Both the position numbers and the translations under genes were made by a program. The notes beneath the pieces are model-generated. The model worked only from the letters and a program-made list of their open reading frames with translations. It made no database searches and had not been told where the DNA came from. Positions 16,891-64,000 of a stretch of DNA of 64,000 nucleotides are shown piece by piece. The stretch comes from Phycisphaerae bacterium (lineage in GTDB: Bacteria > Chloroflexota > Anaerolineae > 4572-78 > J111), in the NCBI GenBank assembly GCA_028285035.1, contig JANQQF010000130.1, positions 1 to 64,000 on the forward strand, read 5' to 3'. Positions within the stretch are counted from its first letter, which is position 1. Every line of letters begins with the position of its first letter.

Positions 16891-17005
16891 AGTGTTTGTA
16901 ACCATCTTGAAAATTCAGGCCCTTTTTCAATTTTTGAAAGCGGGTATAATCCTAGGTTATTGTGCAGCGACGGCACAAGATCTCAATGAGTCAGTTGTAT
17001 ACTTT

Positions 17006-33860: not shown

Positions 33861-34976
33861 ATGATTCAGATTGAACAAATCGATACCCAAGCTCAAGAAC
33901 AAGTACGGCGGTTTATTGACATCCCACTTCATCTTTATGCAGATTGTCCTCACTGGGTTCCTGCCTTATCTTCGATTCAAGAGATATATCTGGATACGGA
34001 AAATAACCCATTTTATGCCCAAGCCCAGGCCGAGTTCTTTATTGCGGTACGGGATGGGTGTGACGTAGGCCGCATTGCTGTTATTGACCGGCATCTTCGT
34101 AATGAATTGAGTGGTATTCCTCGAATTGAGTTTTTTGCCTTTGATTGTGAAAATAATGCTCAAACCGCAAAAAACCTGTTTGACCAAGTGCTTGAGTGGG
34201 CAAAGCAGCGTCAGGCAAGTGAGGTGGTGGGGCCGAGAGTCCCTTTTGTCTTGGAAGGGGCTGGTATTTTGGTTGATGGATTTGATGCACGACAAGTCAT
34301 GACAATGACCTCCTATAATTACGATTACTATGCCGATTTGATTGAAGCGAATGGGTTTGAGAAGGCAGACGATTATCTAACCTATCAGGTGGAGGTTGCT
34401 GATTTTCAATTACCGGATTGGGTCCAGGAGGTCGCCGCCTGGGTTCAGCAGAAGGAAGGCCTGACCATCCAAAGTTTCACTAATCTTGATGAAGTCGGAC
34501 AGGTCATGCCATATATGCTAGCCCTTTATCGCAGACTCCTGGGCGACCCAGTCACGCCTGCGCGAATGAAGGGTGAAGCTGATGCCCTCATGCAGACAAT
34601 CCATATGTTCGTCAACCCGGCCTTGATCAAAGCGGTGATGCATGGCGAGAATCTCGTTGGGTTTATTCTAGCCTTCCCTGATGTTTCCACTGTCCTCCAG
34701 CAAGCGCAAGGGAGCCCTGATCAGGATGCTTTGGCTCAAGCTTTACAAAGCCCTCAATCGGTCGCCCTCAACGGTATTTGCATTGCCCCTGAATTTCAGT
34801 TGCAGGGGATTAATGCGATGTTTTTTTCCGAATTAGAGCGGATGGCTCACGCTATTGAAGTCCAATCAGCCACCATTATCCAGGTTAATGAGACGACAAT
34901 GCATATGTCGCAAGACTTGAAATCTCTGGGCATTCAACCCACGCAAACCCACAGACTCTATATTCATCAGTTTTAG
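33861..34976 (+). CDS. bCerS-like GNAT-fold N-acyltransferase, copy 2
   Basis: 371 residues, paralogous to the copies at 17006, 44349 and 62150. Family marks: RRFIDIPLHLYADCPHWVPAL at 16-36, AEFFIAVRDGCDVGRIAVID, VVGPRVPF where the others have VGPxGF, and YNYDYYADLIE. It is the most divergent in the VGP loop, so substrate choice may differ. Predicted to transfer an acyl group, probably from the ACP of the FAAL-ACP protein encoded 243 bp downstream, to an amine. ATG 33861 has AGGA upstream and lines up with the paralogues. The N-acylation role rests on its resemblance to Caulobacter bCerS and the neighbours. Confidence 0.7.
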   Translation: MIQIEQIDTQAQEQVRRFIDIPLHLYADCPHWVPALSSIQEIYLDTENNPFYAQAQAEFFIAVRDGCDVGRIAVIDRHLRNELSGIPRIEFFAFDCENNAQTAKNLFDQVLEWAKQRQASEVVGPRVPFVLEGAGILVDGFDARQVMTMTSYNYDYYADLIEANGFEKADDYLTYQVEVADFQLPDWVQEVAAWVQQKEGLTIQSFTNLDEVGQVMPYMLALYRRLLGDPVTPARMKGEADALMQTIHMFVNPALIKAVMHGENLVGFILAFPDVSTVLQQAQGSPDQDALAQALQSPQSVALNGICIAPEFQLQGINAMFFSELERMAHAIEVQSATIIQVNETTMHMSQDLKSLGIQPTQTHRLYIHQF

Positions 34977-35092: not shown

Positions 35093-35219
35093 TTGAAACT
35101 AGTATTTCGCGGCATAAATAGAGCAACAGTTATTAAGGGCGAAATATTTAAACAATTGGGCATTGAGATGTTCGTTACTGGATAGCTATCTACGCCCAAC
35201 TGTACTAGATACATTGAGG

Positions 35220-39192: not shown

Positions 39193-39195
39193 TAA

Positions 39196-41082: not shown

Positions 41083-41100
41083 CAATTGATGAAAGGATTC

Positions 41101-44100
41101 ATGACAATGAACGATCATTCTACCCTTAAAATCGACACGTCTGATGACCTAGCCTCAAAATGCGACACATTTGTCCAGTTGCTTCACCAACGGGCCAAAC
41201 ACCAGCCTGATCGACTCAGCCATACTTTTTTAATCGATGGAGAACAAGAAGAAATCCAGCTCACCTACGGGGAATTGGATCGACGAGCGCGGGCGATTGC
41301 GGCTCGACTTCAGGATTTTGGGGCAGCAGGCGAGCGTGTGTTGTTAATCTATCCATCCGGCCTAGGGTATATAGCTGCCTTGTTTGGTTGCCTGTATGCC
41401 GGAGCCGTAGCGGTGCCGACCTATCCTCCCCGTTTCAACCGCTCCGACCCCCGGTTCCAAAGTATCCTCAAAGATGCTCAGGCTGCAATCGTGTTGACCG
41501 ATACGCCCACCTTATCAAAGCTGGAACGGCAGGCAGACACTTTTCCCGGCCTGCCCACTCTGCAATGGCTGGCGACTGATAAAATCAACAGCGATGTTGC
41601 CGAGATGTGGCGTGAACCGGTCATAACTGGCGATACCCTGGCCCTGTTGCAATATACCTCCGGCTCTACGGCCGCGCCCAAGGGCGTGATGATCAGCCAC
41701 AGTAACCTCAAACATAATGCCGCGTTCATTTACCGGAAATTTGAAGATAAACCAACTGCTCAGGGGGTATTCTGGCTGCCCGTCTATCACGACATGGGGC
41801 TTATAGGCGGAATTTTTCAGCCGATTTATGTGGGAGCGCCGACGGTCTTAATGCCCCCCATGGCCTTTCTTCAAAAACCGGTGCGGTGGCTGCAAGCCAT
41901 CTCTACCTACCGGGCCACCAATAGCGGCGCGCCAAACTTTGCCTATGAACTGTGCATTGAACAAATCACACCCGAACAACGGGCCAAGCTTGATCTGAGT
42001 CACTGGAGTCTGGCTTTTAACGGGGCCGAACCGATTCGAGCGGATACCCTTGACCGATTTGTGACCATCTTTGAACCCTGCGGTTTTCGTCGAGAGGCCT
42101 TCTATCCCTGCTATGGGTTGGCCGAAGCAACATTGATGATCTCGGGGGGGAGCCGGAGGGAGCCGCCGATAATCCAGGCGGTTAAGCAAACCACTCTAGC
42201 TAACAATCAAGCCGTTGAAGTCCCGCCAGTGTCTGGGGACGGTCAGCATCTGGTTGGGTGCGGTTCTGCAGGAACTGAACATACGATAGTGATTGTCAAG
42301 CCGGAAACCGGAGTTCAATGTGCACCCGGTCAGGTGGGCGAGATTTGGGTGTCAGGCCCTCAAGTAGCTCAGGGATATTGGAATCAACCAGATCAAACCC
42401 GACATACCTTTCAAGCATATTTGACCGATACCGATGTGGGACCGTTTCTTCGTACAGGGGACCTGGGCTTTCTGACTGATAATGAACTATTTGTCTGTGG
42501 TCGGCTGAAAGACGTGATTATTATTCACGGGCGCAATCATTATCCCCAAGACCTGGAACAAACCGCTGAGCAGAGTCATCCGGCCCTGCAACCAAACTGC
42601 GGTGCTGCCTTCTCGGTAGAGGTCGAAGGGCGGGAGCAGGTGGTCATTGTCTTTGAATTAAAACGATCTCAGCGGAAAGCCAAAGGTGATGAGGTCGTTG
42701 CTGCGATTCGATCCGCGATATCTGATGAGCACCAGGTTGAAGTTTATGGCGTTGTATTGCTCAGGCCTGGCCATATTCATAAAACGACCAGCGGCAAAGT
42801 ACAACGTCACGCCTGTCGAACCGCGTTTTTGGCAGGAACCCTCTCGGCTATCAGCAGCAGTGTCCGTCAATATCCGGCCAATTTATTGGTCGACCAAACC
42901 GAAGTTACAACTTCCCGGCTGCCAACCTCAGCTCGTTTGGAAAAGGATTTACGGGTACGTCTAGCCGAATTCTTGAGAGTGTCACCGGCTGAGATTAACC
43001 TGGATCAACCGATCCAAGCTCTTGGACTTGGCTCGTTGGGGGTAGCGGCGGTCAAAGCTTATGCTGAAGACAATTTCGGAGTGAAGTTGCCGATTGAGCT
43101 GTTTTTTGAAGAGATCACGCTCCGGCAGATCATTACCCAAGTTGTAAACGAAGTCGGAACTGAGGCTATATCAAACCCAGTTGTTCCAGAAGTTGTCCTT
43201 TCTCAATCCCAAGAACTGCCAACTATGGCGGACGAGCCTTCGACATTGTCGTCTCAATCCCCTGAAATCGAGTCAGAGCCAGATCAAGGTCAGCCTGTTG
43301 ACAAAACTATGCAATTTAGCCTCCTCTTTTTCTCGGCTAATGAAGCTGAATTTACGACAAACAAATATCAGCTTTTGCTTGAAGCAACCAAATTCGCCGA
43401 CCAACATGGCTTCACCGCCGTCTGGATTCCGGAGCGACATTTTCATGCCTTTGGGGGGGGGTATCCCAACCCCTCGACCTTGGCTGCGGCGTTGGCCATG
43501 ATCACCGAACGGATTCGCCTACGGGCTGGCAGTGTAGTGCTACCTTTACACCACCCTCTTCGCGTTGCCGAGGAATGGGCTGTGGTGGATAATTTGTCGC
43601 ACGGTCGTGTTGACCTTTCTTTTGCCACCGGTTGGAACACTAATGATTTTGTCCTGGCTCCAGGTAATTTTGAGAATCGTCTTCAGGCGACCTTCGATGG
43701 CATTCAACAGGTCCAGAAACTCTGGCGTGGGGAATCAGTGGTTTTGGCTAATGGGTCCGGTCAGGATACCGAGGTACGGATTTATCCGCTGCCTCAGCAA
43801 AACGAACTAACCGTCTGGCTAACGTGTAGCGGTGGACGGCAGCGTTTTATCGATGCTGGGCAGCAGGGCTTAAACATTTTGACCGCTTTGCTATTTCAAA
43901 CACCAGATGAGTTAGCCGAAAAGATCGCCTTATACCGGGAAGCGCGAGCTAAACACGGTCACGATCCTGAGACCGGGCACGTTACGCTGATGCTGCATAC
44001 TTTTGTGGGAGAGGATATGGCTGAAGTTCGTCGTCATGTGCGCCAACCGTTTCTCAAATATCTTGAGACTTCTGTTGATCTCTGGCGAAATAGCGCTAAA

Positions 44101-44334
44101 CAACTTGATGAATTGACCGAAACAGAGCGGCAGAATGTGCTTGATTATGCTTTTGAGCGCTACGCTCAAACCGGGGCTTTAATCGGTGTCCCGGAGACCT
44201 GCTCGGAGTTGGTGCAGCAAGTCCAATCCGCCGGCGTTAATGAAATTGCCTGTCTTATCGACTTTGGCGTTGAGATTGAAGCGACGTTAACCTCTTTGAC
44301 GATGTTACATAAACTATCAGAACTATTACGTTGA
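41101..44334 (+). CDS. FAAL - ACP - luciferase-like monooxygenase (MupA/Atu3671-type) fusion
   Basis: 1077 residues. The FAAL domain (to about 590) has YTSGSTAAPKGVM, TGDLGFLTDNELFVCGR and lysine K566 (TTSGK). The ACP (about 612-690) carries serine S645 in GLGSLG, with Gly before it. An acidic Ser/Pro linker leads to a flavin-dependent luciferase-like oxygenase at about 737-1077 (FSLLFFSANEAE, WIPERHFHAFGGGYPNPS, ATGWNTNDF), typical of secondary-metabolite LLM domains. The likely task is to load a fatty acid and hydroxylate it on the carrier, e.g. to a 2- or 3-hydroxy acyl chain as common in ceramides (inference). ATG 41101 has AAAGG upstream. Partner of the next gene. Confidence 0.8.
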   Translation: MTMNDHSTLKIDTSDDLASKCDTFVQLLHQRAKHQPDRLSHTFLIDGEQEEIQLTYGELDRRARAIAARLQDFGAAGERVLLIYPSGLGYIAALFGCLYAGAVAVPTYPPRFNRSDPRFQSILKDAQAAIVLTDTPTLSKLERQADTFPGLPTLQWLATDKINSDVAEMWREPVITGDTLALLQYTSGSTAAPKGVMISHSNLKHNAAFIYRKFEDKPTAQGVFWLPVYHDMGLIGGIFQPIYVGAPTVLMPPMAFLQKPVRWLQAISTYRATNSGAPNFAYELCIEQITPEQRAKLDLSHWSLAFNGAEPIRADTLDRFVTIFEPCGFRREAFYPCYGLAEATLMISGGSRREPPIIQAVKQTTLANNQAVEVPPVSGDGQHLVGCGSAGTEHTIVIVKPETGVQCAPGQVGEIWVSGPQVAQGYWNQPDQTRHTFQAYLTDTDVGPFLRTGDLGFLTDNELFVCGRLKDVIIIHGRNHYPQDLEQTAEQSHPALQPNCGAAFSVEVEGREQVVIVFELKRSQRKAKGDEVVAAIRSAISDEHQVEVYGVVLLRPGHIHKTTSGKVQRHACRTAFLAGTLSAISSSVRQYPANLLVDQTEVTTSRLPTSARLEKDLRVRLAEFLRVSPAEINLDQPIQALGLGSLGVAAVKAYAEDNFGVKLPIELFFEEITLRQIITQVVNEVGTEAISNPVVPEVVLSQSQELPTMADEPSTLSSQSPEIESEPDQGQPVDKTMQFSLLFFSANEAEFTTNKYQLLLEATKFADQHGFTAVWIPERHFHAFGGGYPNPSTLAAALAMITERIRLRAGSVVLPLHHPLRVAEEWAVVDNLSHGRVDLSFATGWNTNDFVLAPGNFENRLQATFDGIQQVQKLWRGESVVLANGSGQDTEVRIYPLPQQNELTVWLTCSGGRQRFIDAGQQGLNILTALLFQTPDELAEKIALYREARAKHGHDPETGHVTLMLHTFVGEDMAEVRRHVRQPFLKYLETSVDLWRNSAKQLDELTETERQNVLDYAFERYAQTGALIGVPETCSELVQQVQSAGVNEIACLIDFGVEIEATLTSLTMLHKLSELLR

Positions 44335-44348
44335 TACCAGGGAGAGGT

Positions 44349-45455
44349 ATGTTGCCAAATAAATTGAACATTGAACAAATTGACACTGAATCTAGGGAAC
44401 AGGTCCGCCGATTTATTGAGATCCCTTATCGGCTCTATGCCAATCATCCCCAATGGGTCCCCCCCCTATTGGTCGATGCCGAGCTCTATTTAGACCGGGA
44501 CAATCATCCGCTCTATGAACATTCAGATGCAGATTTTTTTATAGTGGTGCGGGATAAGCGAGATGTAGGGCGGCTTGCGGTCTTTGCTCCACGAGACGAT
44601 GATGCAGATGAGGCCAAGTTCTACCTTTTCGATTGCGAAAATGATCTGGAAGCGGCTCAAGCCCTCTTTACACACGCTTTTGAGTGGGCCAGCGCCCGCC
44701 AATTGAGCCAAGTAATCGGGCCTGTCGGTTTTACCGTTTTAGATGCACAGGGTATTCTGGTTGAGGGGTTTGAATATCCCCAGTGTATGACAATGACGAC
44801 CTATAATTATGACTATTATCCCCCTTTGATAGAGGCAGCAGGGTTTAGCAAGGCTGTAGACTCTATCACTTGTCACATAACCAGAGACGCCTTTCAGTTA
44901 CCGACGTTGGTCCGCGATATTGCCGCTTGGGTACAGCGAAAAGAAGATTTGCATATCCAAAATTTCACCAACCTGGCCGACCTATTACATTGGGGCCCTC
45001 ATTTGTTTGAAACCCAAATAAAATCTTTTGGGTTTCAAGGCATATCTGATCGCGAAAGCGAACTGGTAATCAATACCCTGAAAAGAGTAGCCAACCCATC
45101 TCTGATAAAAGGGATCAAGCATGGGGGTGATATTGTTGGAGCTGTCTTTGTATACCCTAACCTTTCGGCTGCTTTCCGGCGCGCTCAAGGACAGCTTAAC
45201 CTCGAGGCGTTGCAACAAGAGATGCAGCGTACGTCAGGAGTAATCTTTAACGGTTTGGCAGTTTTGCCTGAGTTCCAGCTTCAAGGTCTCAATGCACTCA
45301 TCTTCACCGAGATGGAAAAAACGTTGCGCGAGACAGATTATCAATACGTGGACCTACTTCAAATATTTGAACACAGCTGGTCTATGTGGAACGACCTGAC
45401 AACGCTGGGTATCCAACCTCGCCAGAGGCATAGGGTATATATTCGTATATTATAA
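44349..45455 (+). CDS. bCerS-like GNAT-fold N-acyltransferase, copy 3
   Basis: 368 residues, third of the four paralogues. It has RRFIEIPYRLYANHPQWVPPL, ADFFIVVRDKRDVGRLAVF, VIGPVGFTVLD and YNYDYYPPLIEAAGF. The C-terminal half ends in FNGLAVLPEFQLQGLNALIFTEME, a segment also clear in copies 2 and 4 and likely part of the acyl-donor site. GGGAGAGGT precedes ATG 44349, 14 bp after the FAAL-ACP-oxygenase gene, so the two are surely co-translated. The likely job is to move the hydroxylated acyl chain onto an amine. That assignment is inference from family and position. Confidence 0.7.
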   Translation: MLPNKLNIEQIDTESREQVRRFIEIPYRLYANHPQWVPPLLVDAELYLDRDNHPLYEHSDADFFIVVRDKRDVGRLAVFAPRDDDADEAKFYLFDCENDLEAAQALFTHAFEWASARQLSQVIGPVGFTVLDAQGILVEGFEYPQCMTMTTYNYDYYPPLIEAAGFSKAVDSITCHITRDAFQLPTLVRDIAAWVQRKEDLHIQNFTNLADLLHWGPHLFETQIKSFGFQGISDRESELVINTLKRVANPSLIKGIKHGGDIVGAVFVYPNLSAAFRRAQGQLNLEALQQEMQRTSGVIFNGLAVLPEFQLQGLNALIFTEMEKTLRETDYQYVDLLQIFEHSWSMWNDLTTLGIQPRQRHRVYIRIL

Positions 45456-53276: not shown

Positions 53277-56200
53277 ATGCTAAAGGCCGAGTATAGTTCT
53301 ACCACTCACAAGGCTCAAAATGAGCGTATTGCCGTGGTAGGAATGGGGTGTCGCTTTCCTGGGGGAGCAAATAGCCCAGCTGCGTTTTGGGAGTTATTGC
53401 AAAACGGAGTTGATGCCATCGTCGATGTTCCCGAAGATCGTTGGGATATACGTCGTTTCTATGACCCTGACCCTGGCAAACCTGGTAAGATGTATGTGAA
53501 GCAGGCTGGATTTTTGCAGGAGAAAATAGACCGGTTTGATGCTCAATTTTTTGGTATTTCCCCGCGAGAGGCTGCGCCACTTGACCCCCAACAACGCTTA
53601 CTGCTAGAGGTAACCTGGGAGGCGTTGGAAGATGCGGGGTTTATTCCAGACCAACTTCGACATTCAAATACTGGCGTTTACATCGGTGGGTTTACTCTGG
53701 ATAATAAACTTCTTCAGCTCGGCATCCTTAATCGTGAGGCCATTTCAGCCCATTCCCCGGTTAGCTCATCGATGGTTATGCTCTCCAATCGGCTCTCTTA
53801 CTTTTTTGATTTTCAAGGGCCAAGTTTTACCGTAGATACGGCTTGCTCCTCGTCATTGGTTTCATTGCATCTAGCTTGTCAAAGCTTACTGACCAAAGAA
53901 TGCAACTTAGCTGTGAGTGGTGGGGTCAATATGATGCTCCGTCCGGAGTATCCTGTTGCGATGTGCAAAGGTGGTTTTTTAGCATCCGATGGCCGTTGTA
54001 AAACATTTGATGAACGGGCCAATGGCTATGGTCGGGGTGAAGGGGCCGGAATTGTGATCCTTAAACGTCTCTCCGATGCGCTGGCCGATGGGGATCACAT
54101 CCACGCCTTAATCGCTGCGACTGGTACAAATCAAGATGGCCGTACCAACGGCATTACCCTGCCCAATGCCGCTGCCCAGCAACAATTGATGCGAGAGGTC
54201 ATCCAGAAAGCTGGAATTTCTCCGGCTCAAATTCAATATGTTGAAGCACACGGCACCGGTACCCAAGCAGGCGATCCCGTTGAGGCTGAGTCGCTGGGAA
54301 CCGTTTTGGCTGTTGGCCGGTCTGCTAATGCACCCCCGCGCTGGATTGGTTCGGTTAAAACTAATATAGGACATCTTGAAGCGGCGGCTGGAATCGCCGG
54401 GGTGATTAAGACAATTCTAACGTTAAAGCACAAGGCTATTCCGCCGAATTTACATTTTAATCAGCCCAATCCGAACATTGATTTAGAGGCCTTGGGTTTG
54501 TGCGTGCCTCAAAAATTGGAACCCTGGCCCAATCACGATGGTCCGGCCTACGCCAGTATCAACTCTTTTGGATATGGGGGGAGCAATGCGCATGCTGTTA
54601 TTCAAGAAGCGCCCCCGTTACCTGCACTCTCCTCACCCGACAATGACACATTCTCCCAGACAAACACAGAGACAAATGGACATCTACACATCGCCGTTTC
54701 CAATCTAGTATCAACTCAGGATGCCCCCCTAATTCTTCCACTGTCCGCCCAGACTGAGTCATCATTAGCGGTTAGAGCACAACAAATAGCCCAGATGATT
54801 TCAGAGCACTCTGATCTATCATTAGCTGATCTGGCTTATACCTGTGCTATAAAACGCACGCATCATCGACATCGAATTACGGTTGTAGCAAATTCTAGAG
54901 AGTCCCTGCTTGAAAAATTGACGGCTGTAACCCAGGATAAAATTGTATCGGGAGTAACAGCCGGTCAAGTGACAATTGATCCTAAAGTAGCCTTTGTTTA
55001 CACTGGTATGGGTCCGCAGTGGTGGGGGATGGGCACTGAGTTGCTTGAGCGATATCCACTGTTCACAGAATTGCTTCAGGAATGTGATCATCTCTGGCAA
55101 AAATATGCAGACTGGTCGCTGTTGAAGCTGTTTTCGGATAGAAATGGGCAGCCAATGGCCGAACCAAAATATGCCCAACCCGCGAATTTTATACTCCAGG
55201 TGGGGTTAACCGAATTGTGGCGTTCGTATGGAGTAATGCCTGATGGTTTGATTGGACACAGTGTTGGTGAAATCGCTTCAGCTTATGTAGCCGGTGTGTT
55301 AAGCCTTGAGGATGCCCTCCACTTAACCTACCATCGTAGCCATCTGCAGCAGACCGTGGCGGGCCAAGGTACGATGTTGGCCGTTGGCTTATCCGCTCAA
55401 GCCGTGATATCTTACCTAAACGGCTATACAGATCGGATTTCTATTGCTGCAATTAATAGCCCAGCTTCAGTTACGGTAGCCGGAGACCCTACAGCCCTAG
55501 AACAACTTAGCGCCACCCTAACCAGCCAGGGCGTGTTTAATCGTCCCCTCCAAGTGAAGGTTGCCTATCACAGCTACCAGATGGCCCCCTTAAAAGCTGA
55601 ATTTCTACACAACTTAACCGACTTAACAGCTAACTCACCTCAATTGCCACTCTATTCAACCGTGACCGGGGCCTTGGTGTCTTCGAGGGAGCAGGAGCCT
55701 GAGTATTGGGGGCAAAATTTCGAAGCGCCGGTTTTGTTGTCGCAGACAATCGAGACAATGGCAGCAGACGGCTTCAATACCTTTGTTGAAATTGGTCCAC
55801 ATCCTGTGCTTGGCCCCTCGATTCAGGAATGTTTGCAAGCTGAGGGCGTGACTGGTCTGATGGGCTATTCCCTCCGCCGTAAACAACCGGAAGAGGAAAC
55901 AGTCTTAACAAATTTGAGCGAGCTTTATACGAATGGCATACCCGTTGATTGGAGTCGGCGATACCCAACCGGGAGTCTGCTTACATTACCAAACTATCCT
56001 TGGGATCGGGAAGAACTGTGGTATGAAACTGATCAGTCGCGGGAGGATCGCCTAGGCACAACTGGACACCCGTTGGTTCAGCCTCTAACAGACTCAATTG
56101 AGCCTACTTGGGAAGGCGAATTGAATGCTTATCATCTGCCCTATTTGGTCGATCATCGCCTTGAAAATACCGTGATTTTCCCAGGCAGTGGCTACGTGGA

Positions 56201-59200
56201 GTTGGGCCTCATACCGGCAAAATCTAGCGATGGGTCTTGGATAGAAGGTATAGAATTTTACAAAACTCTGGCCATTGATTATACGCCTGTTGTCCGTTTA
56301 ACATTTAATGAAGACTCTGGCGAGTTCTCCATTTACAGTCGGCCCCTATCAAAAACTAATGAAAAACAGTCGGCTTGGACTCGTCATGCGGGTGGCCGGG
56401 TGGTGCCTGGTGCTATTCCCGCGCAAAACGATCAACTCGACCTGCTAGAAATTCAGACTCGCTGTTCCATTGAACTTGACCGGACGCTGCTCTATCAGAA
56501 TTTTGACAACCTTGGCATGCAATACGGTCCCTATTTCCAGGGTGTTCAACAAATTTGGCAGGGGCAGGATGAGGTCTTGGCCCGGATTGCGGTTCATCAA
56601 GCCGCAGAGGAGAGTTGTCAGGATTATCAAATACATCCAACCCTGTTGGATGGTTGTTTTCAATCATTAATTGCCGCCGTAAGTGAAGATATTACCGATG
56701 CAGGCCATATTTATCTGCCAGTACAAATTGAGCAACTACGCTTGTATGGTCAGATAGGTGCACAAGTATGGTGCTGGGGCTGGCTCACCCGACGAACTGA
56801 TAAATTTTTGGAAGGCAACTTGGTGCTTTGCGACGATAGCGGACAGGTCTTGGCCGAACTACTTGGCTTGTGTCTGCAAGCTCTAGCCCATACCCCAGAA
56901 AATACCGGGTTGTCGGCAACCAATCCCTTTTATGCCACTCAATGGGAGACAACGGTTAATAACGATCCCTTGCCGATTCACAGTCAGCCGCCAGACCGGT
57001 GGCTACTTTTTGCTGATCAGATTGGACTGGATGATGACTTGACAAGGTTGCTGACCGACCACAATCAAGCAACCGCTATGGTGTTTGCTGGGGATGGCTT
57101 CGCCCAGCTTGATGAGCAAAATTTTCAGATTAGGCCTGATAGTGGCGATGATATGCAGCAACTACTCAACAGGGTTTTACAGACCGGCCCTTTATCCGGG
57201 GTAATTTATTTATGGGGCACACATCTATCCAGACCAAACCTCGACCTTGATGACCTACAACAGATCGGCCTCCGTGATAGTGTAACCGTGATGCACTTAA
57301 TCCAGGCGCTTAACCTCAACGGTATCGATAGTTTGCACAAGTTATGCTTTGTCACCGAAGGGGTACAGCAAATTGATGCGGATGAAACAATTGCCTCGAT
57401 TGGACAATCGGCGCTGTGGGGATTAAGACGGGTGATTGCCGCTGAACACCCCACATTTAAACCGGTAATCATTGACTTGCCTGCTGACCCGTCACAGGAG
57501 ATGCTCTCGTCTTTGGTTGCTGAACTGCTGACTGAGGGTGATGAGGCGGAAATTGCCTTGCGTGATACAACCCGTTATGTGCATCGTTTAGTGCAAGTTG
57601 AAGATATGCAACCTGAGTTGATCACGGCCCCATCCCAAATCCCATTTATGCTCACTATCCCCAAACCTGGCCTTATTGACAATCTTGAGTTTCATGAAGT
57701 AGACCGACGCGTTCCCGGTCCCGATGAGATTGAGATTGAAGTCCAAGCTAGCTCGCTTAACTTTAAAGATATTATGAAAGTGCTGAACCTGTTACCGGAT
57801 AACTATTTGGACAACACCTTTTTTGGTCAGGAACTTGGCATGGAATGTGCTGGCGTGGTGGTTAATGTTGGTCCAAACGTGAAAATTTTTAAGGTGGGAG
57901 ATCATGTGGTTGTGCCCGTGGCTGAGGGAAGCTTTCGTTCTTATGTCACTGCCCCCATTCAGTACGCCGTCCCTAAACCAAGTCCGCTCAGCTTTGCAGA
58001 GAGCGTCACCTTTATTCCCTGGATTACCCCCTACTACGCCCTTCACGAAATTGCCCGACTGAAACCGGGCGAAAAAGTGCTTATTCATAGCGCTGCTGGA
58101 GGGGTTGGCCTGGCTGCAATTCAGATTGCCCAATGGAAAGGGGCTGAAATATTTGCGACGGCTGGGAGTCCGGAAAAACGTGAATATCTGGGCTCCTTGG
58201 GAATAAAATATGTCAGCGACTCCCGTTCTCTTAAATTTGTATCTGATATTTTAGCCTGGACCGATGGCGTAGGGGTCGATGTGGTGCTCAACTCGCTGTC
58301 CGGCGAGGGGTTACTCAAAAGCTTTACCCTGCTCGCTTCTTTTGGCCGATTTATCGAAATCGGTAAACGAGATATTAATGAAAATCGGAAGTTAGCGATG
58401 GCTGCCTTTGACCGTAACTTAATCTTTGCGGCTATTGATATTGACAAAATGATGGCCGAGCAACCGACACTGTTTCGACGATTGCTAGATGAAACGTGGC
58501 AATTGCTTGATGATAGCACGTTCAAACCGCTCCCGACGACGACGTTTGAGGCCACCGAAGTGACCGAGGCCTTTCGTTTTATGGCCCAGGCCCGGCATAT
58601 CGGCAAGGTTGTGCTTAAAATGCACAATCAGCCCGTCCAGATTAAATCCTTGCCGCAGGTCAGCCCGATCATCAAGGCTGATGGCAGCTATTTGATCACT
58701 GGCGGATTCGGTGGCTTTGGGCTGGAGGTAGCCAAATGGATGGTGGTACAAGGGGCGCGGCATCTGATTTTGCTGAGCCGCAACGGCCCTCAATCCGATC
58801 AGGCTCAAGCGGCTATGCGTGATTTCGAAGCACAAGGGGTGGAACTGCACGTCGCCAAAGTCGATGTTTCTAACCTTGAGCAAGTTGAGACCTTATTTAG
58901 CCAAATCAAGGCGACGATGCCGCCGCTGAAAGGCATTATGCACGCGGCGATGGTATTGGATGATGGTCTATTGCTTCAGCTAGATAAAACTAGATTTGAA
59001 AGGGTGATGGCACCCAAAGCACTGGGAGGCTGGCACTTGCATCAACAAAGTCTGGACACCCCGTTAGATTTCTTTATCACATTTTCTTCCGTGTCTGCCC
59101 TGTTGGGGAACGCCGGACAGTCCAACTATGTGGTCGCCAATGCGGTACTTGATGGGCTAGCCCATTATCGCCGTTCTCGCGAATTGCCAGGCTTGAGCAT

Positions 59201-59828
59201 TAATTGGGGTGTCATCAGCGATGTGGGCGTTGTAGCCCGCGATGCTGGGGTGGCCCAACACCTCGATCGTTTAGGCATCAGAGGGATGACGTCCGGTCAG
59301 GCGCTTGAGGCGTTGCAACAGCTCTGGTCGCAAAATCTCACCCAAATTGGGGTGATGGATATCGATTGGCAGCAGTGGGCTGTCAACCTTGAAGTTGGGC
59401 AGATATCACCCTTCTATTCCCATCTAGTATCATTGAATGGCAACCAGCGAAATGACCCGGATATTAACCCATTTGCGGGCACGCTTCTGGCGGTTCCTTT
59501 GGATGAGCGACAACAGGTTACCGAAACGTTTCTCACCGAGCAGGTTTCAAAAGTGTTGCGTTTATCGGCCTCAAAAATCGATGCCTATAGCAAACTCGAC
59601 CACTTAGGCTTTGACTCGCTGATGTCTATGGAGTTACGCAACGCAATTCGACTTGAAACGGGGGTAGAAATTACCACAATGCTGTTGATGCAGGGGCCAA
59701 CGATTGCCCAGTTGGCCACGCAGCTTCTGGCGGAAATTATCATGCCGGACGATGATTTGTTGGCCAAAATAGATGATATGTCTGAAGAGGAACTAGACTC
59801 TCTACTGCTGGAAATGATGGAGGAGTGA
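53277..59828 (+). CDS. Fully reducing type I polyketide synthase, single module (KS-AT-DH-ER-KR-ACP)
   Basis: 2183 residues. KS: C190 (DTACSSSL), H325 (EAHGTGT), H366 (NIGHLEAAAG). AT: S662 (GHSVGE) with AYHSYQM at 763-769, close to the AYHSHHM of fungal highly reducing PKSs. DH: H960, though the usual HxxxG has Asn for Gly, and D1125 (LLDGCFQ). A structural KR part fills about 1215-1450. ER about 1460-1780 (AAGGVGLAA). KR: TGGFGGFG at 1808-1815, K1914, S1938, Y1951. ACP serine S2114 (GFDSLM). There is no thioesterase. It should build a saturated chain iteratively and pass it to the AONS encoded just downstream, as in fumonisin-type sphinganine analogues. GAGGAG precedes the ATG by 7 bp. Confidence 0.9.
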   Translation: MLKAEYSSTTHKAQNERIAVVGMGCRFPGGANSPAAFWELLQNGVDAIVDVPEDRWDIRRFYDPDPGKPGKMYVKQAGFLQEKIDRFDAQFFGISPREAAPLDPQQRLLLEVTWEALEDAGFIPDQLRHSNTGVYIGGFTLDNKLLQLGILNREAISAHSPVSSSMVMLSNRLSYFFDFQGPSFTVDTACSSSLVSLHLACQSLLTKECNLAVSGGVNMMLRPEYPVAMCKGGFLASDGRCKTFDERANGYGRGEGAGIVILKRLSDALADGDHIHALIAATGTNQDGRTNGITLPNAAAQQQLMREVIQKAGISPAQIQYVEAHGTGTQAGDPVEAESLGTVLAVGRSANAPPRWIGSVKTNIGHLEAAAGIAGVIKTILTLKHKAIPPNLHFNQPNPNIDLEALGLCVPQKLEPWPNHDGPAYASINSFGYGGSNAHAVIQEAPPLPALSSPDNDTFSQTNTETNGHLHIAVSNLVSTQDAPLILPLSAQTESSLAVRAQQIAQMISEHSDLSLADLAYTCAIKRTHHRHRITVVANSRESLLEKLTAVTQDKIVSGVTAGQVTIDPKVAFVYTGMGPQWWGMGTELLERYPLFTELLQECDHLWQKYADWSLLKLFSDRNGQPMAEPKYAQPANFILQVGLTELWRSYGVMPDGLIGHSVGEIASAYVAGVLSLEDALHLTYHRSHLQQTVAGQGTMLAVGLSAQAVISYLNGYTDRISIAAINSPASVTVAGDPTALEQLSATLTSQGVFNRPLQVKVAYHSYQMAPLKAEFLHNLTDLTANSPQLPLYSTVTGALVSSREQEPEYWGQNFEAPVLLSQTIETMAADGFNTFVEIGPHPVLGPSIQECLQAEGVTGLMGYSLRRKQPEEETVLTNLSELYTNGIPVDWSRRYPTGSLLTLPNYPWDREELWYETDQSREDRLGTTGHPLVQPLTDSIEPTWEGELNAYHLPYLVDHRLENTVIFPGSGYVELGLIPAKSSDGSWIEGIEFYKTLAIDYTPVVRLTFNEDSGEFSIYSRPLSKTNEKQSAWTRHAGGRVVPGAIPAQNDQLDLLEIQTRCSIELDRTLLYQNFDNLGMQYGPYFQGVQQIWQGQDEVLARIAVHQAAEESCQDYQIHPTLLDGCFQSLIAAVSEDITDAGHIYLPVQIEQLRLYGQIGAQVWCWGWLTRRTDKFLEGNLVLCDDSGQVLAELLGLCLQALAHTPENTGLSATNPFYATQWETTVNNDPLPIHSQPPDRWLLFADQIGLDDDLTRLLTDHNQATAMVFAGDGFAQLDEQNFQIRPDSGDDMQQLLNRVLQTGPLSGVIYLWGTHLSRPNLDLDDLQQIGLRDSVTVMHLIQALNLNGIDSLHKLCFVTEGVQQIDADETIASIGQSALWGLRRVIAAEHPTFKPVIIDLPADPSQEMLSSLVAELLTEGDEAEIALRDTTRYVHRLVQVEDMQPELITAPSQIPFMLTIPKPGLIDNLEFHEVDRRVPGPDEIEIEVQASSLNFKDIMKVLNLLPDNYLDNTFFGQELGMECAGVVVNVGPNVKIFKVGDHVVVPVAEGSFRSYVTAPIQYAVPKPSPLSFAESVTFIPWITPYYALHEIARLKPGEKVLIHSAAGGVGLAAIQIAQWKGAEIFATAGSPEKREYLGSLGIKYVSDSRSLKFVSDILAWTDGVGVDVVLNSLSGEGLLKSFTLLASFGRFIEIGKRDINENRKLAMAAFDRNLIFAAIDIDKMMAEQPTLFRRLLDETWQLLDDSTFKPLPTTTFEATEVTEAFRFMAQARHIGKVVLKMHNQPVQIKSLPQVSPIIKADGSYLITGGFGGFGLEVAKWMVVQGARHLILLSRNGPQSDQAQAAMRDFEAQGVELHVAKVDVSNLEQVETLFSQIKATMPPLKGIMHAAMVLDDGLLLQLDKTRFERVMAPKALGGWHLHQQSLDTPLDFFITFSSVSALLGNAGQSNYVVANAVLDGLAHYRRSRELPGLSINWGVISDVGVVARDAGVAQHLDRLGIRGMTSGQALEALQQLWSQNLTQIGVMDIDWQQWAVNLEVGQISPFYSHLVSLNGNQRNDPDINPFAGTLLAVPLDERQQVTETFLTEQVSKVLRLSASKIDAYSKLDHLGFDSLMSMELRNAIRLETGVEITTMLLMQGPTIAQLATQLLAEIIMPDDDLLAKIDDMSEEELDSLLLEMMEE

Positions 59829-59830
59829 CG

Positions 59831-61159
59831 ATGAATAGTAATCATAAAAAATTACCAGCGCTTTCTCTGGAGCAAAAAAGAGAACTTTTAAGGCAAAAGT
59901 TACAGGAAAAAGCGCTTAAACAACAGGCGAACGTGCCAACAGACCGTGATAACATCCCCCAGAAAAGTTATCGGGTAGACCTGTTTCCTGAATATCAATC
60001 TTTGCAGCAGCAATTTGCTAACTTAGAACGGCTAGAGGTGTCGAACCCTTACTTTAGAGTTAATGAAACGGCTGTAAATGATACCACTATCATCGGAGGC
60101 CAAGAATATATCAGCTATGCTGGCTACAATTATCTTGGCTTTTCTGGCGATCCCAGGGTGTCGGAGGCCGTTAACGAGGCGGTTGAGCGCTACGGTACCT
60201 CGGCGTCAGCCAGCCGGGTGGCTACGGGCGAACGGCCCATTCATCAGGAATTGGAACAAGAACTGGCGGCTTTGCTAAATACCGAAGACTGTCTAGCGTT
60301 TGTCAGTGGTTATGGCACAAATGTGACTGTCATTAGCCACCTGTTTGGGGCGAATGATCTTATTATTCACGATGCACTCAGCCACAGCAGCATTTTGAAC
60401 GGTTGTTTGCTTTCGAGCGCTAGGCGCATTCCCTTTCCCCATAATGATGTTGAGGCGGCCGAAAAGATTTTGCAGGAGAATCGGCATAATTATGAACGTG
60501 TTTTAATTGTCATCGAAGGCGTTTACAGCATGGATGGCGATATTGCCGACCTACCCGGCTTTATCGAATTGCGCAATAAGTATAAAACCCTACTGATGGT
60601 TGATGAAGCCCACTCAATCGGCGTGCTGGGCCAAACCGGACGGGGCATCGGCGAACATTTTGGCGTCAACAGCGCAGACGTTGATATCTGGATGGGCACC
60701 CTTAGCAAAACCTTTGCCAGTTGTGGCGGATATATTGCCGGGTCTCGGGCTCTGATCAAGTTGCTCAAATATACGGCACCTGGTTTTCTTTACAGTGTGG
60801 GGATTTCGCCGCCTAATGCGGCGGCTGCTTTGGCTGTCGCCCGTTTGCTGCCTCAAGAGGCTGAACGGGTGGCTCAATTGCAGCAAAATTCAAAACTTTT
60901 TCTTAATTTGGCCCGCCAAAAAGGGTTAGATACTGGCCTAAGCCACGACTCACCGGTTATTCCAATTATTATCGGAAACTCTATGCGCTGTCTGCAAGTG
61001 GCGCATCAACTCTTTGAACAGGGCATTAATGTGCAGCCCATCCTCTACCCAGCCGTGGCTGAGGATGCTGCCCGCTTGAGATTTTTTATGACCTGCCAAC
61101 ATACGGCAGACCAGATTCACTATACGGTCGATAAGATTGAGGAGTGTTTAAAGCAATAA
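59831..61159 (+). CDS. Stand-alone alpha-oxoamine synthase (serine-palmitoyltransferase-like)
   Basis: 442 residues of the PLP-dependent AONS family (BioF, KBL, Spt, HemA). PLP lysine K293 (GTLSKTF), D258-EAH (cofactor pyridine contact), and the SGYGTN and HDALSHSSI blocks are all present. A charged 45-residue helical N-terminal extension may dock on the PKS ACP (inference). The predicted reaction condenses the PKS-bound acyl chain with an amino acid, releasing it as a 3-keto amine; it replaces the missing thioesterase. The ATG at 59831 is chosen because AGGAG lies at good spacing; the GTG at 59825 is too close to it. Overlaps nearly with the PKS stop, so translation is coupled. Confidence 0.85.
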   Translation: MNSNHKKLPALSLEQKRELLRQKLQEKALKQQANVPTDRDNIPQKSYRVDLFPEYQSLQQQFANLERLEVSNPYFRVNETAVNDTTIIGGQEYISYAGYNYLGFSGDPRVSEAVNEAVERYGTSASASRVATGERPIHQELEQELAALLNTEDCLAFVSGYGTNVTVISHLFGANDLIIHDALSHSSILNGCLLSSARRIPFPHNDVEAAEKILQENRHNYERVLIVIEGVYSMDGDIADLPGFIELRNKYKTLLMVDEAHSIGVLGQTGRGIGEHFGVNSADVDIWMGTLSKTFASCGGYIAGSRALIKLLKYTAPGFLYSVGISPPNAAAALAVARLLPQEAERVAQLQQNSKLFLNLARQKGLDTGLSHDSPVIPIIIGNSMRCLQVAHQLFEQGINVQPILYPAVAEDAARLRFFMTCQHTADQIHYTVDKIEECLKQ

Positions 61160-61161
61160 CT

Positions 61162-62163
61162 ATGACTAAGGGCAAAATATTTGTGACGGGTGGTAATGGG
61201 TTTATCGGTTCGCGGGTTGTGCGGCAACTGCTTGAGCAGGGGTATGAGGTGCGCTGCTTGCTGCGGACAACTAGTAACACCACGCGCATTGATGGCCTGG
61301 AATTTGAACCAGTCATCGGAGATGTGCGGGATATCACTTCAATTGAGGCAGGTATGACGGAGTGTCATGGGGTGATCCATTTAGCCAGTCTATCAAGTTG
61401 GGATGACATTCACTCACCTTTGATGGATGAGGTCGTGGTGCAAGGCTCCAAAAATGTACTGGCCACAGCTAGCAAATTGGGTAACCTGAGAATGGTTTTT
61501 GTTAGCTCGATCATTGCCGTAAATGGAACCACAACACCCCAAATTCTCACCGAAGAAAGCACCTTTACGCTAAAACAGGGTAAGGATTACGGCTATGCCT
61601 TTGCCAAACGTAAGGTTGAAGCGCTCTGTCGAGAAGCAGCTCAAAATGGTTTGCCAGTGATGATTGTTAACCCTAGCGAGGTGTATGGGCCTGACGATAC
61701 AGATATGGTCACTGCGGGAAATTTGGTTGATTTTGCAACGAGTCCAGTGGTGCTGGTTCCCAGTGGTGGCACCAGTGTGGCCCACGTTGATGATATCGCG
61801 ACAGGGATTATCGCGGCCCTGAAAGTGGGCCATCCGGGTGAACGCTACATCCTGGGCGGTGATAATCTCACTATCAAAGCACTGGCAGACTTGACCCTAA
61901 GCCTACTTAATCAACAGAAAAAAATCATTACAATCCCCAATGTCTTATTGAGCGCTCTGGCTAAAATTGGCAGCACCCTGCACATTCCCTTGCCCTTCAA
62001 TCCGGCTGTTATTCCCTATGCGGTTAAATATTGGTTTGTTGATAATCGTAAAGCCTGTCAGGAATTAGGTGTACAATTTCGCCCTGCTAAGGAAGCGCTG
62101 GCTCCAACTTTACAATGGCTGCAAGAGGCTGGTTATGTAAAAGGAAATCATGATCAGAATTGA
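61162..62163 (+). CDS. CerR-like extended SDR (NAD-dependent epimerase/reductase family)
   Basis: 333 residues. Rossmann GGNGFIG at 10-16 and the catalytic Y145-x3-K149 (YAFAK) define an extended SDR. Proteins of this family next to AONS genes reduce the 3-keto group in bacterial ceramide synthesis (Caulobacter CerR, recalled). Following the AONS by 2 bp and preceding a bCerS-like gene, it should reduce the 3-keto amine or the 3-keto-ceramide to the alcohol. It may also serve the first operon, whose KDSR is broken. ATG 61162 has only a distant GAGGAG; the GTG at 61144 is an alternative. Confidence 0.75.
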   Translation: MTKGKIFVTGGNGFIGSRVVRQLLEQGYEVRCLLRTTSNTTRIDGLEFEPVIGDVRDITSIEAGMTECHGVIHLASLSSWDDIHSPLMDEVVVQGSKNVLATASKLGNLRMVFVSSIIAVNGTTTPQILTEESTFTLKQGKDYGYAFAKRKVEALCREAAQNGLPVMIVNPSEVYGPDDTDMVTAGNLVDFATSPVVLVPSGGTSVAHVDDIATGIIAALKVGHPGERYILGGDNLTIKALADLTLSLLNQQKKIITIPNVLLSALAKIGSTLHIPLPFNPAVIPYAVKYWFVDNRKACQELGVQFRPAKEALAPTLQWLQEAGYVKGNHDQN

Positions 62164-63277
62164 AAAGATTGATCGTACCTCAAAAAAGCGGGTAAATCGC
62201 TTTGTCAATATTCCCTACCGGCTATATGCCAATCATCCACAATGGGCTCCCCCACTCATTATGGACTCCAAATTATACCTGGATGTAAAAAAACACCCTT
62301 TTTATAACCACTCAGAGGCTGATTTTTTTATTGCTGTTCGAAATGGACAAGATGTTGGTCGCATTGCAGTTCTGGAACATCGGCTGTTTAATCAACATCA
62401 CGGCACACAACGTTGCCAGTTTTATTTATTTGAATGTGAGCACGATTTAGAAGCCGCAACCGCGCTCTTTGATCGAGCCTACGAATGGGCCAAAGAGCGC
62501 AATCTAACCGAAATTGTTGGACCAAAAGGGTTTTCTATGCTCGATAGTCTGGGCATGCTGGTAGATGGTTTTGATCATCAACAAACCATGACCATATCTA
62601 GCTACAACTACGACTACTACCCTGAACTCCTGGAGTCGCTTGGCTTTGTCAAAGAGCTTGATTATATCTCGTGCCAAATGAGTGCTGATACCTATCAATT
62701 CCCGGACTGGATTGAGACTATTGCCAATGAGGCCCGTCAAAAAGGAGATTTGACTGTGCGGGGATTTCGCAATATGCGCGAGTTGTTGTCCTGCGCTGCT
62801 GAGATGTTGAAAACATACAACACTGCGATGCTAAATAATTGGGAGAATTATCCATATCCTGACTATGAAATATCTTTTATCATCGATACGCTAAAGGTGA
62901 TTACCAATCCCAAGTTGATGAAAGTTATATATCAAGGCGAACGAATCGTTGGGATTCTGTTTGCTTTTCCTGATTTATCCATCGCATTGCAACGCGCTAA
63001 AGGGCGACTAACACCGCTTAGCCTGATCGACTTGCTCCTTCAAGTTCGCCGCAGTAAACGTATTGTGCTCAATGGATTAGGCATTTTGCCTGAATTTCGA
63101 CTGGGTGGTGGCAATGCTTTACTGTTCTCCGAGTTGGCCAAAACTGTGGAAGATTTTGGCATTCAGCAGGTCGAATTGCCCCAAATGGCCGACACGGCGG
63201 TTGCGGTGAGGCGTGATCTGGCCACTGTAGGAATCAAACCGTATAAGACCCACCGTATCTATGTTAAACAAGTGTGA
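62150..63277 (+). CDS. bCerS-like GNAT-fold N-acyltransferase, copy 4
   Basis: 375 residues, closest to copy 1 (shared VLEHRLFNQHH, VGPKGF, RLGGGNALL-type end). NRFVNIPYRLYANHPQWAPPL, ADFFIAVRNGQDVGRIAVL and YNYDYYPELLESLGFVKE mark the family. It overlaps the CerR-like gene by 14 bp with AAGGAAATC before the ATG, and a FAAL gene follows at 8 bp. In this AONS-CerR-acyltransferase-FAAL order it is the strongest candidate for the step that N-acylates the reduced base (dihydroceramide formation). Acyl donor: probably the acyl chain activated by the FAAL that follows. Confidence 0.75.
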   Translation: MIRIEKIDRTSKKRVNRFVNIPYRLYANHPQWAPPLIMDSKLYLDVKKHPFYNHSEADFFIAVRNGQDVGRIAVLEHRLFNQHHGTQRCQFYLFECEHDLEAATALFDRAYEWAKERNLTEIVGPKGFSMLDSLGMLVDGFDHQQTMTISSYNYDYYPELLESLGFVKELDYISCQMSADTYQFPDWIETIANEARQKGDLTVRGFRNMRELLSCAAEMLKTYNTAMLNNWENYPYPDYEISFIIDTLKVITNPKLMKVIYQGERIVGILFAFPDLSIALQRAKGRLTPLSLIDLLLQVRRSKRIVLNGLGILPEFRLGGGNALLFSELAKTVEDFGIQQVELPQMADTAVAVRRDLATVGIKPYKTHRIYVKQV

Positions 63278-63284
63278 GGCAAAT

Positions 63285-64000
63285 GTGACAACGGAATGGA
63301 AAACATTGGTTGACCTGTTAGAATGGCGGGCAGCACACCAATCAAATCGAACGGTCTTTAACTTTTTGGATAATGGCGAAACCAAATGTAACCAACTGAC
63401 CTTCGTGGACTTAGATCAACAGGCCAAAAGTATTGCAGCCCAGCTAATGGCCAGGAAAGCCAGTGGTGAACGGGTGCTTTTGCTCTATCCACCTGGCCTT
63501 GATTTTATTGCGGCGCTATATGGTTGTTTTTATGCCGGAGCCATTGCCGTTCCCGCTTATCCTCCGCAACTGGGCCGTTATAACAATCATCTCACCGCTA
63601 TTATCAATACCGCCCAGCCTAAACTGTTTCTGACAACCAGTGATTTTCTGAATCAAATCCGCCGTCGTTCTGAACAAGAGGCGTTATTATCTCAGCTAGA
63701 TAGCCTAGTCACCGATCAAAACCTTCCCACTATGAATATGACTCCTTCTCAACCGGAGCCAAATAGTTTAGCGTTTCTGCAATACACCTCTGGCTCGATT
63801 GCCCAGCCCAAAGGTGTTATGGTGACACACAACAATGTGTTAAATAATCTGGACAGTATAGTTTCAGCCTTTAACTTCAATCCTGATGACCCTCATCAGT
63901 CCGGGGTAAGTTGGCTGCCCCCATATCATGATATGGGGCTGATTGGGGGAATTTTTTTAGCAATCTACACCGGACGCCCCCTCACCATGATGTCACCGCT
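63285..64000 (+). CDS. FAAL, copy 5 (3' part off the right edge)
   Basis: The open frame from GTG 63285 (GAGG upstream) runs to the window end, 238 codons. It has FAAL-like YTSGSIAQPKGVMVTH at about 166-181 and [13 protein letters not shown], with CFYAGAIAVPAYPP at the N-terminal substrate tunnel region. Domains beyond the adenylation core cannot be seen. It is expected to supply the activated acyl chain to the bCerS-like enzyme just upstream, as in the other three pairs. Confidence 0.85.
   Translation, partial: MTTEWKTLVDLLEWRAAHQSNRTVFNFLDNGETKCNQLTFVDLDQQAKSIAAQLMARKASGERVLLLYPPGLDFIAALYGCFYAGAIAVPAYPPQLGRYNNHLTAIINTAQPKLFLTTSDFLNQIRRRSEQEALLSQLDSLVTDQNLPTMNMTPSQPEPNSLAFLQYTSGSIAQPKGVMVTHNNVLNNLDSIVSAFNFNPDDPHQSGVSWLPPYHDMGLIGGIFLAIYTGRPLTMMSP

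Follow-up and report, generated by a model that had tools for sequence, protein, structure and literature searches.

We analysed a stretch of 64,000 nucleotides of contig JANQQF010000130.1 (assembly GCA_028285035.1; Chloroflexota, Anaerolineae), hereafter the window, and focused on five genes at its 3' end (53277-64000) that may make a ceramide-type lipid with a long-chain base derived from a polyketide synthase (PKS). An earlier, sequence-only reading described them as one operon encoding a reducing PKS without thioesterase, an alpha-oxoamine synthase (AONS), an extended short-chain dehydrogenase/reductase (SDR), a GNAT-type acyltransferase and a fatty acyl-AMP ligase (FAAL). The open reading frames (ORFs) and Pfam matches bear this description out. 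The operon is real and looks intact, with all five genes on the forward strand.

Layout of the operon

53277..59828, +: PKS, fully reducing type I, 2183 aa (ORF, Pfam and motifs)
PKS domains (Pfam), +: KS 53322-54458, AT 54993-55940, DH 56067-56897, ER 57717-58616, KR 58683-59219, acyl carrier protein (ACP) 59532-59720
59825..61159, +: AONS, pyridoxal phosphate-dependent, candidate for the release and condensation step; start at 59825 (GTG) or 59831 (ATG)
61144..62163, +: extended SDR, HpnA / dihydroflavonol-4-reductase-like, candidate 3-keto reductase; start at 61144 (GTG) or 61162 (ATG)
62150..63277, +: GNAT4, tandem-GNAT acyltransferase of the CerS/bCerS family (bacterial ceramide synthases), candidate N-acyltransferase
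63261..64000, +: FAAL-type AMP-binding enzyme, 246 aa, open at the window end; start at 63261 or 63285 (Pfam, NCBIfam)

The genes had been said to be separated by overlaps or gaps of at most 8 bp. With the later starts this holds at three junctions: PKS and AONS overlap by 4 bp or are 2 bp apart, AONS and SDR overlap by 16 bp or are 2 bp apart, and GNAT4 and the FAAL overlap by 17 bp or are 7 bp apart. It fails between the SDR and GNAT4, the sole junction lacking an alternative later start, where the overlap is 14 bp.

The PKS has a single module with the Pfam domain order KS-AT-DH-ER-KR-ACP, and a thioesterase is absent from the 18 Pfam families listed. We identified the motifs TACSS, EAHGTGT and KTNIGHLEAAAG in the KS, GHSVG and VAYHS in the AT, DHRLENTVIFP and HPTLLD in the DH, GGVGLAAIQIA in the ER, TGGFGGFG, LDD and YVVAN in the KR, and GFDSL in the ACP, which are the usual catalytic motifs of these domains. 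The motif DHRLENTVIFP departs from the consensus by an N in place of a G, and we take the combination of VAYHS and GHSVG in the AT to suggest the use of malonyl units.

The single-module PKS stands directly before a free-standing AONS, which is the arrangement of SgaAB-type clusters. SgaAB of Pseudomonas fluorescens MYb115, published in 2025, combines a PKS and an AONS to produce C24, C26 and C28 sphinganines; SgaB condenses acyl-CoAs with L-serine, for which it has a strong preference, and its serine palmitoyltransferase (SPT) activity was demonstrated (PMC12134224). The same article proposes a KDSR-type SDR for the reduction of the ketone in SgaAB(C), counts 6101 homologous putative clusters, and names the fungal fumonisin and sphingofungin pathways. 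The release of a PKS chain by an AONS as a sphingoid base, which the sequence-only reading had assumed, is thus established in bacteria (PMC12134224). The window operon is like SgaAB(C) in joining a single-module PKS, an AONS and a reductase in one cluster. It differs in that SgaAB(C) has a KDSR homologue and no CerS-family gene or FAAL named in the available excerpts (PMC12134224), whereas the window operon has an extended SDR on the HpnA side, a CerS-family GNAT and a FAAL. Among 80 fetched loci the top-scoring PKS was that of L018 (1827 bits, 2188 aa), from an alphaproteobacterial bin, where an apparent classical SDR, judged by eye, lies directly 3' of the PKS and AONS (L018:8424-9242) and fits a SgaC-type reductase.

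Families of the acyltransferase, the AONS and the reductase

Neither Pfam nor NCBIfam yields a match to GNAT4 at E 1e-3, the sole sub-threshold one being Acetyltransf_1 (E 0.02), and three of its relatives (55-57% identity) pass E 1e-3 for a GNAT model. The structure predicted for GNAT4 (mean pLDDT 87) and that of a GNAT linked to SPT have the same order of elements save for a short helix (78-84) of GNAT4 only, and both predicted folds retrieve tandem GNATs first in the PDB. Among the 120 relatives listed, the four with a named organism are all from Anaerolineae, Anaerolineales or Chloroflexota (53-55% identity). We drew our CerS references from genomes recognised by the SPT model and by gene order, so that they are SPT-linked GNATs and do not include the Caulobacter protein itself.

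The tie between this family and SPT was assessed in Alphaproteobacteria, with 115 genomes drawn evenly from a larger group. The curated cut-off of the alphaproteobacterial SPT model (670) is passed by only one of them, and at E 1e-3 the model matches 103, which includes other AONSs. We counted as strong the matches of at least 430 bits, a threshold of our own placed in the empty range from 432 down to 263 bits. A strong SPT match was found in 13 genomes and the GNAT profile at E 1e-30 or better in 13, with 12 in common. The genome with the GNAT only (G055) has it less than 1 kb from an AONS whose best NCBIfam model is SPT, under cut-off, and the genome with SPT only (G091) has its match at the start of a contig. 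One more (G133) has a 54-residue GNAT match (E 7e-4), and the remaining 100 have neither. When both were present, the GNAT lay within 10 kb of SPT on one contig in 8 of 12 genomes. In Bacteroidota, where 2 of 61 genomes pass the SPT cut-off, we followed seven of the eight top-scoring ones: all seven have the GNAT, which adjoins SPT in six (in G177 it is elsewhere), with an SDR next in two. These six Bacteroidota loci (L208-L213) were chosen after the GNAT had been seen nearby.

Comparison of profiles aligns the Chloroflexota-type GNATs to the SPT-linked ones over 369 columns (E 1e-78, 25% identity), i.e., they are homologous over their full length. In the GNAT tree, the four GNATs of the window group with the Chloroflexota-type ones (support 100) and the other phyla each occupy their own part. 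Three reference sets share 42 positions that are conserved across phyla; GNAT4 and its paralogue GNAT1 each retain 39 of them, GNAT2 retains 32, and GNAT3 retains 30. The earlier description of the acyltransferase as bCerS-like is thus upheld by the profile alignment, the co-occurrence with SPT and the conserved positions. As judged from sequence, GNAT4 belongs to the CerS/bCerS family, and it probably acylates a sphingoid base. That GNAT4 is a chance neighbour of the other genes is unlikely, given the co-occurrence of GNAT and SPT in Alphaproteobacteria.

Members of the family also turned up in viral records. On one contig catalogued as viral, the gene of a full-length CerS-family GNAT, 28% identical to a GNAT of the window (L222:8001-9140), occurs alongside PHROGs matches to tail proteins, a reverse transcriptase, an endolysin and an anaerobic ribonucleotide reductase. 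It is the single locus of the viral scan with such a GNAT and has no bearing on the operon. Six human-faecal phage records contain GNAT relatives, five at 42-58% identity and one at 24%. These genes could be phage genes or fragments of host genomes.

For the AONS, we built trees of 68 and 45 rows picked by hand from 131 extracted AONSs, with three BioF, two KBL and three ALAS references, each above its own cut-off. In the 45-row tree, the operon AONS falls within a clade (100/100) in which many AONSs form fusions with a PKS or FAAL or come after one, and its closest partner is the AONS of L016 (94/97), a Flavobacteriales bin. It lies outside the canonical SPT clade. One branch of this unrooted tree (97/95) separates BioF, KBL and ALAS from the operon-AONS clade and the SPTs, and the operon AONS passes none of the cut-offs of the former. 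Plain BioF or KBL identity is therefore ruled out by the tree, in agreement with the sequence-only reading. A sequence search of the PDB places SPT entries (3a2b, 8guh) on top. The organism-named relatives among the matches listed are mostly cyanobacterial, so the AONS gene may have moved horizontally.

The reductase had been called CerR-like, and this label did not survive. The best matches in 22 genomes and the tree rule out that the operon SDR is CerR: it groups away from the SDRs adjacent to SPT and nearer to HpnA-like ones, an outcome that had been named beforehand as speaking against the ceramide-type interpretation. Its best match is the SPT-adjacent SDR in 2 of 14 SPT genomes (G032, G078), another SDR scoring higher elsewhere, and among the matches listed the SPT-adjacent SDRs reach 26-43 bits. 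The best NCBIfam model is HpnA (205 bits, cut-off 368), and five of the top matches of the operon SDR pass the HpnA cut-off. In a 30-row tree, it pairs with the SDR of L016 (100/100), and a 97/99 branch leaves the two on the side of HpnA. It is of the extended type, not a KDSR-type classical SDR as in SgaAB-type clusters.

The operon SDR looks tied to the AONS. In L016, an SDR 60% identical to that of the operon follows the AONS after 51 bases, and for at least five AONS homologues there is an SDR homologue whose longest contig has the same size (10078, 10744, 9536, 27590 and 25790), as seen by eye between two lists of 120 relatives each. This suggests that the homologues are genomically linked; the equal sizes indicate probable shared contigs and are no proof of them. 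Six SDR relatives among the matches listed have a named organism, four from Chloroflexota, Anaerolineae or Anaerolineales (60-65%) and two from Flavobacteriales (60%).

The proposed pathway and its alternatives

We consider, with a probability of roughly 0.6, that the operon makes an N-acylated, ceramide-type sphingolipid with a PKS-built long-chain base. This is supported by the family of GNAT4, the AONS clade, the PKS motifs and the lack of a thioesterase, the SgaAB layout, the pairing of AONS and SDR, and the FAAL neighbours. The PKS, by its domains, would extend a starter with malonyl units, presumably iteratively, and fully reduce each, leaving the chain on the ACP. The AONS would remove it in a decarboxylative condensation that yields a 3-keto base; the amino acid partner is most likely L-serine, as it is for SgaB. 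The SDR, to judge from its place and linkage, may reduce the ketone, and GNAT4 would add a second acyl chain to the amine from an acyl-ACP made with the adjacent FAAL, although the donor and the order of the steps are our proposal. The ceramide-type interpretation as first put forward is thus supported in part: the acyltransferase and the AONS are in its favour, and the CerR label and the novelty of PKS plus AONS had to be given up.

We then looked at how these genes are combined elsewhere. The scan kept 80 of 589 AONS loci, and the CerS-family GNAT was searched for in the genomes of 52 of them, with one protein as query in 20 and an alignment in 32. Many of the reference genomes, among them metagenome bins such as L016, are possibly contaminated. 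The GNAT is present in all genomes with a FAAL-AONS fusion (14/14), in 4 of 10 with a PKS-AONS fusion (three Myxococcota and one Planctomycetota; five actinobacterial and one cyanobacterial genome are without), and in 2 of 9 of the class "other or contig end". It is clearly present in none of the 19 other genomes with a PKS followed by a free-standing AONS, with a weak match in one (Thiomargarita, E 2e-13) and none in 18. The window operon is the sole such case in the sample with a clear CerS-family gene, and has it inside the operon. Hence, in the tested genomes, CerS-family genes go with FAAL-AONS fusions and hardly with PKS plus free-standing AONS. The rule that FAAL goes with CerS is valid for the fusions only, because the cyanobacterial loci L004 and L010 have FAAL-like genes nearby and no GNAT; a third locus, L075, consists of an ORF truncated where its contig stops. 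In myxobacterial L132 and L145, a FAAL, a PKS-AONS fusion and the GNAT occur together.

Two bins of Desulfobulbaceae/Syntrophobacteraceae (L135 and L136) present another arrangement, in which the genes of an SDR and a CerS-family GNAT are in line with that of a KS protein carrying an NMO-type domain. The first (L135:1398-11724) has AT-ACP-KR-DH in addition, and the second is cut by its contig (L136:1795-7568). We take this PKS to be polyunsaturated fatty acid synthase-like. AONS genes with FAAL and ACP are found on other contigs of these genomes (L024, L067).

Several observations weigh against the proposed pathway. The FAAL gene is incomplete and ends with the window. The mean identity of GNAT4 to the SPT-linked references is 27%. 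The 80 loci of the scan did not contain the five-gene operon a second time; none of them is titled Chloroflexota, so that within this phylum the linkage of SPT and GNAT was seen in the window alone. The AONSs of SgaAB layout form a separate clade (7 rows, 98/93; SgaB is not among the rows) that excludes the operon AONS, both being within the wider 100/100 clade. The NCBIfam models rank bioF first for the operon AONS (363 bits, cut-off 426) and SPT second (335, cut-off 640), all its scores being under cut-off; bioF likewise comes first for the AONS of P. putida L069, which has the SgaAB layout. Finally, 10 of the 11 SPT-adjacent SDRs lie across the 97/99 branch from the operon SDR (the eleventh, L124, is a long, odd branch), so that the latter does not look orthologous to CerR.

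The ranking of bioF bears on the amino acid used. BioF uses alanine, and the operon AONS could take glycine or alanine to give a 1-deoxy-type base that is then N-acylated, a product that would be ceramide-like and not serine-based; 1-deoxyceramides are mentioned in bacteria (PMC11334938). We regard this as unlikely, since SgaB, of like layout, strongly prefers serine (PMC12134224) and the PDB sequence search ranks SPT first. The AONS clade also includes cyanobacterial and actinobacterial members, with CerS-family genes in 0 of 11 tested genomes, which would fit an amino-ketone natural product other than a sphingolipid, as made by other AONS-bearing PKS clusters. This is unlikely in our view, because the operon includes GNAT4, whose family is tied to SPT in Alphaproteobacteria.

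The position of the SDR near HpnA-like enzymes, by tree, best matches and best NCBIfam model, would also be expected of a sugar- or hopanoid-related epimerase outside the lipid pathway, with the ketone reduced by another reductase or by none. This too is improbable, to a similar degree as the use of glycine or alanine, considering that the SDR of L016 comes after an AONS belonging to the clade of the operon AONS and that homologues of the two occur in pairs with contigs of equal size. Another alternative is closest to SgaABC: PKS, AONS and SDR would make a free sphinganine analogue, with GNAT4 and the FAAL serving another lipid, e.g., the product of the FAAL-ACP-AONS fusion encoded at 18130-21612. 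That the PKS-AONS unit works without CerS elsewhere, as in 18 of the 19 genomes above, speaks for it. Against it are the 14-bp overlap of GNAT4 with the SDR inside the operon and the fact that the fusion line has its own CerS relative, GNAT1, and we hold it to be unlikely.

The proposed ceramide pathway has parts in common with several known systems. The ceramide genes of Caulobacter share with the operon an AONS, a reductase, an acyl-activating enzyme and a CerS-family N-acyltransferase, and differ from it by having no PKS among the five, an SPT-clade AONS and an SDR of the other clade, as judged from alphaproteobacterial genomes of equal gene order. In Caulobacter, CerR is periplasmic (PMC11087976) and cerS is reported to be always in an operon other than aasR-cerR-acpR-spt (PMC11324152), whereas GNAT4 overlaps its neighbours in the window. 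The published order aasR-cerR-acpR-spt (PMC11324152) corresponds to the FAAL-like gene and SDR that precede SPT in 8 of the 12 alphaproteobacterial stretches scanned. The Bacteroidota loci L208-L213 resemble the operon by an SPT-like AONS beside a CerS-family GNAT (SDR next in 2 of 6) and differ by an SPT-clade AONS and the lack of a PKS match in the fetched stretches; in Bacteroides, BT_0972 reduces 3-ketosphinganine (PMC9278070). The myxobacterial loci L132 (which overlaps L036) and L145 (which overlaps L076) have PKS, AONS, FAAL and CerS-family GNAT in one locus, but their PKS and AONS are fused, no ER was found in L036, the GNAT genes are divergent from the FAAL and PKS genes, and no match to an SDR of the window type was found. 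The fungal fumonisin and sphingofungin pathways are alike in the release of a highly reducing PKS chain by an AONS, and differ in producing sphinganine mimics; they are not known to include a bacterial CerS.

We found no paper joining PKS-AONS with CerS in bacteria, nor one adding a CerS-family gene and a FAAL to a SgaAB-type cluster, as judged from listings and the starts of abstracts in a search that had most subscription journals outside its range. The statement that the combination was undescribed in bacteria thus falls for PKS plus AONS, known from Pseudomonas as SgaAB (PMC12134224), and stands, in the literature searched, for the added CerS-family gene and FAAL. The union of PKS-AONS base synthesis with CerS-family N-acylation in one operon seems new, and the operon most likely combines two known schemes, its reductase coming from a different SDR group.

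Other lipid genes in the window

Two large genes precede the lipid genes, which otherwise include three further CerS-family genes:
4913-12172: large repeat protein, 2419 aa, secreted-looking, with a run of GGGGSVRG units (by eye; before the lipid cluster)
12306-16475: apparent cyclase-ATPase-TPR regulator, 1389 aa (by eye; before the lipid cluster)
16892..18133, +: GNAT1, second CerS-family acyltransferase, 57% identical to GNAT4 (later start 17003 used in the analyses)
18130..21612, +: FAAL-ACP-AONS fusion, 1160 aa, overlapping GNAT1 (Pfam, NCBIfam, tree)
22176..24269, +: FAAL-ACP-like protein, 697 aa (by eye from the ORF translation)
33861..34976, +: GNAT2, diverged CerS-family paralogue
35163..37286, +: FAAL-ACP, 186 bp 3' of GNAT2
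37322-38305, +: DAGK/YegS-type lipid kinase (Pfam)
38302-39192, +: CTP_transf_1 cytidylyltransferase (Pfam)
39196-39792, +: CDP-alcohol phosphatidyltransferase (Pfam)
41086..44334, +: FAAL-ACP-luciferase-like monooxygenase fusion, overlapping GNAT3 (TIGR04020 above cut-off)
44331..45455, +: GNAT3, diverged CerS-family paralogue

The fused AONS domain of 18130-21612 falls within the SPT clade (99/95) on a long branch, and its best NCBIfam model is SPT, under cut-off. Each of the four CerS-family genes in the window has a FAAL next to it, so every GNAT may receive its acyl-ACP from a FAAL(-ACP) of its own. GNAT3, beside the monooxygenase fusion, has lost 12 of the 42 conserved CerS positions. 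The run of kinase, cytidylyltransferase and CDP-alcohol transferase genes between GNAT2 and GNAT3 is possibly a head-group module; if these enzymes (37322-39792) act on ceramide, a CDP-ceramide-like route would be implied.

Taken together, these genes allow a tentative and still doubtful picture of one Chloroflexota lineage with a modular ceramide factory. It would have two base-making lines (PKS to AONS, and the FAAL-ACP-SPT-like fusion), both with a conserved CerS of their own, along with the module for head groups. The two diverged CerS paralogues would be served by dedicated FAAL-ACPs, and the flavin monooxygenase joined to one of these could oxidise the acyl donor.

Until now, the synthesis of ceramides in bacteria and that of sphinganines by a PKS have been treated as separate matters, and they meet here in one operon. 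Recent work reports Spt-like genes in 218 metagenome-assembled genomes of Chloroflexota and a correlation of ceramides with Anaerolineae, and points to Chloroflexota as the likely origin of ceramides found in anoxic waters and sediments (PMC11334938, PMC12619533). The operon offers concrete genes to test and, if the picture of a modular factory is true, PKS-built ceramides could be among those that correlate with Anaerolineae in anoxic waters.

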